NCBI GenBank assembly: GCA_016178705.1
Contig: JACOST010000032.1
Coordinates: 1 to 64,000 of the forward strand
DNA: 64,000 nucleotides
Source: Deltaproteobacteria bacterium
GTDB lineage: Bacteria > Desulfobacterota > Binatia > HRBIN30 > JACQVA1
Direction of reading: 5' to 3'
The first letter of the stretch is position 1, and each line of letters begins with the position of its first letter. Positions 2,016-46,400 of this stretch are shown here, piece by piece. The position numbers and the translations under genes are program-made. The notes beneath the pieces are model-generated. The model was given only the letters and a program-made list of their open reading frames with translations. It searched no databases and had not been told where the DNA came from.

Positions 2016-3314
2016 TCACGCCACCGCGGACGGCTTTCGGCGACGCACGCACCACAGGATCACGATCGGCGCGAGCAACCGAGCGAACGGATGGCTATCG
2101 GTCGCGTGACTGTGATTGACGGCACAGCCACCGCCACCGCCAGCCATTTGGGTAGCGTCTGTACCAATCGCGGGGCTGGTGGGGGTCGGCGTGCTGACCG
2201 AAGTTCCTGCCTTCAGCGTGTTGGTCGGCGTCCGTGCGGCGAGCGTATCCGTCGCGCGCGGTGTGTTGGTGGGGGTCGGCGTGGGAGAATCTTCTGCGGC
2301 TTGCTCAATGTCGAATACTCCGTTGGTCGTCGCTACATACACTGTCGTCGGCCTGTGCGGATCGATTGCCAGCGCATTGATTGTGAGGCTGGTCAGTCCG
2401 GCATTGAACTCGCCCCTGCTCGCGCCACCGTCCGTGCTCTTGAACACGCCATCGTTGGTGCCGGTATACACAGTCGTCGGCGTATGCGGGTCGATGGCGA
2501 TGGTTCGGGTGCCACTTGCGCTTGGCCCGGGCCCAGTCAGGTGCCAATTTCCACCGCCGTCGGTGCTCTTGTACACACCATTCTGTGTTCCAGCGTAGAA
2601 GGTGCTGGATGTTACCGGGTCGATCATCACATCAAAGACGTGGAAAATGGCACTGGACGATGGGTTCAAGATGACCTGCCAGGTGGCACCGCCGTCGATG
2701 CTTTTCAGAACCCCGCTTGCGCTCCCGGCGTAGAGCGTGCCGGGCAGAGAGAGATCAACTCGAAGCGCGAAGACTAGACCGACAGACGAGCCCTTGCTCC
2801 AGGTGCGACCGCCGTCGGTGCTTTTGAAGACCTGGCCATCCCCGTCAGGATAGCTCGCAGCATAGACAGTGGTTGCCGTGGCCGGATCGATCGCGAGTGC
2901 GGAAATCACATCGAGAGCGGGCGCCGGAACGTCCCGCAAGATGCTGTCCCAGGTAGAGCCGCTGTTCGTACTCTTGAACAGGCCGCCCGCTGTCCCGACG
3001 TAGAGCGTGTTGGGCGTGAGAGGATCGATGGCGAGCGCACGCGTTGCCGCCTCAGTCGACGCCAGGTTGAGCGCCTCCCAGCGATTGCCGCTGTTCGTGC
3101 TCTTGAACAATCCCGTCTGCGTCCCGGCGTAGAGCGTGCTGGGCGTAGTGGGATCGATGGCGAGCGCGTTCACCACGCTGCCTTCATCCGGCCCGTGGGT
3201 TGTCCAGACATGGAACCCGGCCTGCGCGCTGCCCGCACTGACAACAGCGAAGGCGAGCCACGTAGCGGCGACGCGACGGACAGACCGACTGGAGATGTGA
3301 GTGATCATCTGCAT
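2016..3314 (-). CDS. Secreted Asp-box (BNR-like) beta-propeller protein with C-terminal anchor
   Basis: A 432-residue exported protein. It begins with a signal peptide (basic start, hydrophobic core, SAQA cleavage region). The body holds about seven Asp-box motifs of the S-x-D-x-G-x-x-W type (STNSGNRW, STDGGRTW, SIDGGATW, STDGGGNW), the pattern of sialidase-like and VPS10/Ycf48-like propellers. A Pro/Thr-rich linker follows, then GGGGGC, a hydrophobic segment (LLAPIVILWCV) and a terminal RRRK cluster. That last part resembles tripartite C-terminal sorting signals such as GlyGly-CTERM or MYXO-CTERM, so surface anchoring is inferred. The ATG at 3314 has GGAGGG upstream; longer starts lack one. 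Ligand unknown. Confidence 0.78.
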   Translation of the reverse strand: MQMITHISSRSVRRVAATWLAFAVVSAGSAQAGFHVWTTHGPDEGSVVNALAIDPTTPSTLYAGTQTGLFKSTNSGNRWEALNLASTEAATRALAIDPLTPNTLYVGTAGGLFKSTNSGSTWDSILRDVPAPALDVISALAIDPATATTVYAASYPDGDGQVFKSTDGGRTWSKGSSVGLVFALRVDLSLPGTLYAGSASGVLKSIDGGATWQVILNPSSSAIFHVFDVMIDPVTSSTFYAGTQNGVYKSTDGGGNWHLTGPGPSASGTRTIAIDPHTPTTVYTGTNDGVFKSTDGGASRGEFNAGLTSLTINALAIDPHRPTTVYVATTNGVFDIEQAAEDSPTPTPTNTPRATDTLAARTPTNTLKAGTSVSTPTPTSPAIGTDATQMAGGGGGCAVNHSHATDSHPFARLLAPIVILWCVRRRKPSAVA

Positions 3315-45066: not shown

Positions 45067-45180
45067 CATGCTTCGAGACGCGCCTGTCGGCGCTCCTCAG
45101 CATGAGCGGTTCTCCTCTTGTGCCCCAATACTTTCCCGCTCGTCCTGAGGAGGCGCGAAGCGCCGTCTCGAAGGGCGCCG
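45067..45180. repeat. Dispersed inverted repeat R8 (CTGAGGAG type)
   Basis: The left arm (45068-45108) read in reverse gives CTGAGGAGCGCC and GCGTCTCGAAG; the right arm (45137-45178) reads CCTGAGGAGGCGCG and GCCGTCTCGAAG. Arms of about 40 bases are reverse complements with a 28-base spacer. Repeats with this core are common in many proteobacterial genomes. It separates the MFS start from the end of the HMA gene. Confidence 0.75.
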
Positions 45181-45215
45181 TACCTTTCAACAGGCCACTA
45201 CGGAGGTGTTCAGCG

Positions 45216-45554
45216 TCAGCCGCCGGGCTTGGCGCGCGGCACTTCGCTGAACGTATTCACGCCGTACTTAGTGTCCTTGAACGCGTTCTCGATCATCGCG
45301 CGCGTGATCGCTTTACCCTTCTTGGCCGTGAGCGTCGCCGTCTTCTGTTCAAAGCTCACCTCGATATTTTCGCACTCGTCGATCTTAGTCAGGGCCGCAC
45401 GGACCCTGTCAGCGCAGGAGTGAGGTCACGTCATGCCCGAGACCGCAACGACGTACTGTCGCCCGGCACTCTTCTGCGCGTCGGAGCCGGCGTATGCGGC
45501 CACGACCGTTCCCAACGCGACTATCGCGGTGATGCTGGCGAGATTCATTTTCAT
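45216..45554 (-). CDS. HMA-domain periplasmic protein with in-frame UGA, candidate selenoprotein
   Basis: Read through one UGA (45428-45426), this frame gives 112 residues: a signal peptide (MKMNLASITAIVALG, then AYAGSDA), then a heavy-metal-associated domain. VVAVSGMT precedes the UGA, then PHSCADRVRAALTKID, IEVSFEQKTATLTAKKGK, MIENAFKDTKYGVNTF and a normal stop at 45216. UGA stands where the HMA motif GMTC has its first cysteine, so residue 43 would be Sec; the next Cys comes as U-x3-C rather than C-x2-C. The frame stays open for 70 codons past UGA and completes the beta-alpha-beta-beta-alpha-beta fold. A hairpin like a bacterial SECIS follows. Alternatives: a nonsense mutation or base error. 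MerP-like UGA-containing HMA proteins have been reported. Confidence 0.72.
45390..45408 (-). promoter_or_regulatory. Candidate bacterial SECIS hairpin
   Basis: Bases 18-36 after the UGA form CAGGG, unpaired U, CC, loop GUGC, GG, CCCUG. A bulged U just below a short apical stem with a GU-containing loop is the layout of the E. coli fdhF element that SelB binds; the loop lies about 26 bases after the UGA, within the usual distance. A GC-rich hairpin of this size can also occur by chance. Confidence 0.55.
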
Positions 45555-45620
45555 GACCAATCTTGTACCGACCCTGGCCGAGCCGTGCAAGTTGCTCGGC
45601 CTCATGGTACGAGGCGCGGC

Positions 45621-46400
45621 ATGAGTTCTCCCAAAGTCGCCTTCATCACCGGCGCCAGTCGCGGCATCGGCAAGCAACTCGCCATCGATTTTGCGAAGGC
45701 GGGCTACGACGTGGTGTGTCTGGCGCGTTCAACCAGTGACCAGCCCACCAAACTGCCTGGCACGGTCGACGCGACCGCCGAGTTGGTCCGCCAACACGGT
45801 CGACGCGCATTGGCGCTCGGCGTCGATTTGCAAGTGGAAGAACAACTGCGCGCCGCCGTCGATCGCGCCTATGACGAGTTCGGTCGCATCGACGTGCTGA
45901 TCAACAACGCCGCGATCGCGATTCCCGGACCAACGCTTCCGCAACCGATGCGTAAGTGGCGGCTGGCGATGGAGATCAACGTCAACGCCCCGCTGGCGCT
46001 GATGATGGCCGCTTGTCCGCGCATGACCAAAGCCGGCGGCGGGCACGTGATCAACGTGTCGTCAGAGGCCGCGGTGTTCCCCGAGTTCGGCCGCGCCAGC
46101 TACACAGTGACCAAGGCGGCGCTAGAGTCGCTCAACCAATGCATGGCCCACGAACTCAAGCCGTCCGCCATCGCCGTCAACGTCATGCGCATCGACGTGC
46201 CGATTTGGAGCGAAGGCTTCGTCTTCACGTTGCAGGGGATGGACACCAGCGACTTCGAAGATCCGGTCATCATGTCCGATGCGTGCCTGTGGATCGCCGA
46301 CCAGCCAGCGACATACACGGGACACATCCTGACCATCACCGGGATGCGCGAGCAGGGCATCATCCGTCCGCGCACTCGTGTGGGGCAGCGGACGCTCTGA
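45621..46400 (+). CDS. Short-chain dehydrogenase/reductase
   Basis: A 259-residue NAD(P)-dependent SDR. The cofactor site is FITGASRGIGKQLAIDFAKA; NNAAIAIPGP matches the NNAG block; the catalytic Tyr-x3-Lys is ASYTVTKAALESL with an upstream Ser in INVSSEAA. The C-terminus (HILTITGMREQGIIRPRTR) is specific. Classical SDR length. It is divergent from the HMA gene by 66 bases, so both promoters overlap there. Substrate unknown. Confidence 0.88.
   Translation: MSSPKVAFITGASRGIGKQLAIDFAKAGYDVVCLARSTSDQPTKLPGTVDATAELVRQHGRRALALGVDLQVEEQLRAAVDRAYDEFGRIDVLINNAAIAIPGPTLPQPMRKWRLAMEINVNAPLALMMAACPRMTKAGGGHVINVSSEAAVFPEFGRASYTVTKAALESLNQCMAHELKPSAIAVNVMRIDVPIWSEGFVFTLQGMDTSDFEDPVIMSDACLWIADQPATYTGHILTITGMREQGIIRPRTRVGQRTL

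Follow-up and report, generated by a model that had tools for sequence, protein, structure and literature searches.

A predicted HMA-fold selenoprotein with a U-x3-C motif encoded across an in-frame UGA

Does an in-frame UGA in the gene of a small, secreted heavy-metal-associated (HMA) protein end translation, or does it encode selenocysteine (Sec)? The question is raised by a minus-strand open reading frame (ORF) in the window, i.e. the whole stretch of 64,000 nucleotides analysed here, and it has practical consequences: annotation pipelines, which stop at UGA, miss or truncate such a protein wherever it is present.

Reading frame and conservation of the in-frame TGA

The ORF begins with an ATG at position 45554 and continues through a signal-peptide-like segment, MKMNLASITAIVALGTVVAAYA, and HMA sequence up to GMT, where it meets a TGA at 45428-45426. 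After this codon, 69 codons follow in the same frame up to a TGA stop at 45218-45216. The start, the TGA at residue 43, the GMT-U-PHSC motif and the final stop were all re-read as the initial annotation had given them; the continuation in the same frame also held, although its length had been put at 70 codons, a figure that is correct only if the stop is counted. The word 'catalytic', which had been applied to the cysteine position taken by the UGA, is probably wrong, as the residue looks like a metal ligand. The features of the locus are as follows.

45216..45554, minus strand: predicted selenoprotein gene, 112 residues, stop included in the coordinates (ORF, PF00403 match, AlphaFold2 model, gene order in genome G001)
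Within 45216..45554, minus strand: predicted signal peptide (about residues 1-22) and HMA domain (about residues 33-105)
45426..45428, minus strand: in-frame TGA, read as Sec43 in GMT-U-PHSC (TGA or Cys in every aligned UxxxC/CxxxC homologue)
45414..45416, minus strand: TGC codon of the partner residue Cys47 of U-x3-C (invariant in the alignment)
45390..45408, minus strand: SECIS-like hairpin CAGGG-U-CC-GUGC-GG-CCCUG, 18-36 bases after the UGA (covariation, comparison of Sec and Cys forms)
45216..45218, minus strand: terminal TGA stop codon (ORF reading)

We searched 98 genomes of the same class and found a match to the window protein in 24 of them. In ten genomes, the window's own (G000) included, TGA occupies the identical codon (G000, G001, G003, G009, G012, G014, G023, G050, G063 and G068), and the motif reads GMTU-P-x-x-C or a close variant. 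The other homologues carry Cys at the Sec position (GMTCATGC, GMTCPTGC, GMSCAIGC and similar). In an alignment of 29 sequences, which left out a few weaker matches that are ordinary CxxC HMA domains, the G, M, C/U and C columns and one Leu column are invariant. The alternation at residue 43, which the initial annotation had proposed to look for, is indeed what appears there, and no residue other than Sec or Cys occupies the position among the aligned UxxxC/CxxxC-type homologues. Three residues lie between the two positions in Sec and Cys members of this type alike; the three-residue spacing is therefore the norm of a distinct U-x3-C subgroup, as had been suspected from the window sequence. In a tree computed with the U/C column masked, two changes of the Sec/Cys label are the minimum needed. 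The G021 Cys form is placed together with a Sec form (92/86); most deep branches do not resolve.

A protein query for related loci matched nothing, probably because its back-translated Cys cannot pair with a TGA. The search was extended to other classes by running a DNA pattern, in which the TGA was fixed, over the genome collection. Of its 23 matches, about a third proved on translation to be due to chance and were set aside; the others included additional HMA genes with the GMTU motif in metagenome-assembled genomes (MAGs) that their depositors named as Planctomycetota, Armatimonadetes and Myxococcales, and in one unnamed bacterium. Altogether, the same TGA is present at the same codon in approximately 20 independent assemblies. 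At the phylum level, a wider search gave matches that, judged by frame lengths, mostly belong to P-type ATPases with ordinary CxxC HMA domains.

The sequence downstream of the UGA is also conserved. The dN/dS values computed after the UGA were 0.15-0.31 in the five best pairs; one other pair gave 0.40, and another, which is strongly diverged, gave 0.65. Judging from these ratios, the codons downstream of the UGA are under purifying selection.

We further asked what the read-through protein would look like. Its match to the Pfam HMA family PF00403 covers residues 35-95, a region that spans the UGA, and scores 32.8 bits, above the cut-off of 24.8 (E = 9.1e-8). The AlphaFold2 model built from the family alignment displays the full HMA fold (E-H-E-E-H-E, the beta-alpha-beta-beta-alpha-beta order of the family) with pLDDT >90 over most of the domain, and the top Foldseek matches of this model include MerP (1osd) and CopZ (6ff2), both with probability 1.00, and copper-transporter domains. 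According to the model, the portion 3' of the UGA is required for the HMA fold, in agreement with the earlier view that the frame after the UGA completes it. In GMxCxxC, the motif typical of HMA domains though not obligatory, two residues separate the ligands; here the motif is GMTU-PHS-C, with three.

Selenocysteine machinery, the SECIS-like hairpin and the decoding of the UGA

All four genes whose presence had been proposed as a check, selA, selB, selC and selD, are found in the window's genome. selA (597 bits) adjoins selB, tRNA-Sec (selC) scores 74.7 bits and selD scores 407 bits. We accepted tRNA-Sec matches only above approximately 60 bits, since some match is obtained in every genome, including 14 controls, and a second tier lies at 45-55 bits. 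selA exceeded its cut-off in 10 of 10 genomes with the TGA form, compared with 76 of the 98 genomes of the class overall, and a strong tRNA-Sec was found in 9 of the 10; in G068, a MAG that is 87% complete and has selA, no convincing tRNA-Sec was found. Two genomes with Cys forms, G021 and G044, have neither selA nor a strong tRNA-Sec. In the same genera as G003, G009 and G014, which have the gene, are G005, G011 and G008, in which both the gene and a strong tRNA-Sec are missing (G011 keeps selA). This co-absence suggests that the gene and the Sec trait were lost together. The selD gene of the window's genome (L058; G000:C14:751984-752913) itself contains an in-frame TGA, and its product, selenophosphate synthetase, is thus probably a selenoprotein too.

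The hairpin with a bulged U and a GUGC loop that had been claimed 18-36 bases past the UGA is present at 45408-45390. When the 55-nt stretch was shuffled with its dinucleotides preserved, the stability of the window hairpin was not exceptional (z = 0.26); compared with random synonymous recoding, the window sequence gave p = 0.029. Under synonymous recoding, Sec forms exceeded Cys forms in stability (median z of –1.9 and –0.5, respectively; p = 2e-5, an optimistic value because the related sequences are not independent). All seven pairs of the hairpin, with U drawn as paired to G or A, are kept in seven sequences picked for sharing one hairpin register, four from the window's order and three from Planctomycetaceae (100% of cells paired); compensatory changes occur at three of the seven pairs, whereas slid controls reached at most 53% of cells paired. 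Other members have hairpins in neighbouring registers, GGUC loops among them. It is this conservation and covariation, along with the comparison with Cys homologues, that makes the hairpin convincing as a SECIS element.

These results bear on other possible readings of the TGA. A genuine stop, leaving a short secreted peptide of 42 residues or a decaying pseudogene, would accord with the standard code, in which TGA terminates, and with a hairpin that, taken from the window by itself, is not extreme. However, the TGA recurs in many lineages, the dN/dS values of the best pairs are low, the HMA domain is complete only past the UGA and the genome encodes Sec machinery; we therefore regard a stop as very improbable. 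Still less credible is decoding of the UGA as Trp or some other residue, by an alternative code or near-cognate read-through: it has no specific support, and it is at odds with the complete Sec system, with homologues that carry Cys and never Trp, and with the terminal TGA of the window gene itself. An error for TGC or TGG could be imagined in an assembly of 33 contigs, but since the identical TGA is shared by independent relatives, a read error is hardly conceivable and chance is excluded. Conservation and Cys alternation led us to reject all three readings: termination, error and decoding as a different amino acid.

Among the features that mark bacterial selenoproteins, the locus shows conserved coding sequence downstream of an in-frame UGA, Sec/Cys alternation at the UGA and a SECIS stem-loop directly 3' of it, the last not significant in the window sequence alone. 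The conserved UGA, the alternation, the SECIS covariation, the purifying selection, the Sec machinery and the HMA fold, all computational lines of evidence, support the reading of the locus 45554-45216 (minus strand) as a selenoprotein gene, to which we assign a probability of approximately 0.93. In this gene, SelB bound to the hairpin just 3' of the UGA would bring Sec-tRNA(Sec), and the ribosome would insert Sec at residue 43. The product would be exported via its signal peptide and would fold as an HMA domain, the metal loop of which would bear Sec43 and Cys47 (U-x3-C).

Relation to known HMA-type selenoproteins

The initial annotation noted that MerP-like HMA selenoproteins had been described before, and HMA-type ones are known (MerP, UxxU and MerT/CopZ). 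Listed in a 2026 catalogue of prokaryotic selenoproteins are metal-binding proteins with UxxU, a cation ATPase with UxxC and one putative mercuric transport protein; the UxxxC motif was not found in this catalogue (PMC13188914). A 2008 ocean survey, the Global Ocean Sampling (GOS) selenoproteome, reported two Sec-containing MerP sequences (PMC2398784). In the main text of the deep-Sep paper, there is no mention of an HMA or heavy-metal selenoprotein.

Neither the window protein nor any of six relatives tested passed an NCBIfam cut-off. MerP (TIGR02052) is an HMA protein for which a Sec form is reported (PMC2398784); the window protein matches it at 34.9 bits but falls short of the cut-off of 92.55 bits, has U-x3-C instead of the two-residue spacing of classical MerP, and has no mer operon around its gene. 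The UxxU metal-binding (seleno)protein NF041115 is likewise of HMA type; the window protein scores only 30.3 bits against its cut-off of 95, which was passed in none of the 98 relatives' genomes, and the UxxU proteins differ in having two Sec residues with two residues between them (PMC13188914). The MerT/CopZ fusion-like heavy metal transport selenoprotein NF045683 resembles the window protein in its HMA part and shares a MerT-HMA architecture with two loci of relatives, L065 and L075. However, the window protein reaches 25.9 bits and L075 79.5 bits against a cut-off of 375, and the window gene encodes a standalone secreted protein with no fused MerT part. The Sec form of the cation-transporting ATPase E1-E2 (PMC13188914) also places Sec in a metal transport protein, but it is a P-type ATPase with UxxC spacing, unlike the small secreted window protein. 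HMA-type selenoproteins are thus already known, and the UxxxC subgroup adds a variant of them.

Some relatives of this subgroup are fusions. In L065, L066 and L075, the UxxxC HMA domain is fused to an N-terminal MerT-like membrane part, and L066 additionally has a CopZ-type N-terminal domain (NF047645, over the cut-off); none of the three passes the cut-off of NF045683.

In two other loci, L072 and L079, the UxxxC gene is directly followed by another HMA gene (2067-2294, minus strand, in L072; 3078-3305, plus strand, in L079), which is lipoprotein-like and also contains a TGA (GMSU-GTM-C). From its sequence, this arrangement is a putative tandem pair of selenoprotein genes in Planctomycetota.

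Genomic context and possible role

The window gene lies between an MFS transporter and an SDR enzyme, and the order dnaX, recR, MFS, selenoprotein gene, SDR, FKBP is common only to the window and the same-family genome G001. Other Sec genomes of the class have different neighbours, so that the context offers no operon clue, and we rejected a functional link to the neighbouring genes. No mer genes (merR, merT, merA) were found near the window gene, and a search for MerT in the window's genome, run without a positive control, gave no match. No other HMA domain was found in this genome (6.1 Mb), which encodes four E1-E2 ATPases.

The best functional clue is provided by the MerT fusions of the relatives, which point to periplasmic soft-metal binding and transfer, and by analogy with them we favour this role. 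A metal-binding function is probable for the selenoprotein. In the most likely, MerP-like version of it, a periplasmic soft metal ion, e.g. Hg(II), Cu(I) or Ag(I), would be bound by the selenolate and the thiolate and then passed on to a partner or held. The main rival to the metal carrier is a selenoprotein in which the U-x3-C pair forms a periplasmic thiol-selenol redox centre, as in an HMA-fold reductase or oxidant sensor. Many bacterial selenoproteins are thought to be redox-active (PMC13188914), no HMA-bearing ATPase was found in the window's genome, and the extra loop residue departs from the classical metal-binding CxxC. On the other hand, both fold and sequence place the protein among metal-binding HMA proteins, and relatives are fused to MerT-like segments, one of them also to a CopZ N-terminal domain. 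We consider the redox role unlikely, though far less so than the alternative decodings of the UGA. Evenly poised, in our judgement, is the broader proposal of an uncatalogued selenoprotein family across several phyla, in which the U-x3-C HMA loop would form a selenolate site dedicated to a soft metal, occurring standalone, in tandem Sec pairs or in MerT-like fusions, and representing the sole HMA domain found in the window's genome.

The occurrence of the group in several phyla suggests that Sec is used here in the position of a metal ligand and not in an enzyme, and the UxxxC motif is an addition to those that we found in the 2026 catalogue. The Cys twins allow a direct comparison and would thus provide a clear test of the contribution of selenium to metal trafficking.

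A 432-codon plus-strand ORF (window positions 45102-46400) runs antisense across the selenoprotein gene, and only its part from 45621 onwards represents the SDR gene. Because of this overlap, an automatic call of the SDR gene may wrongly extend over the selenoprotein gene.
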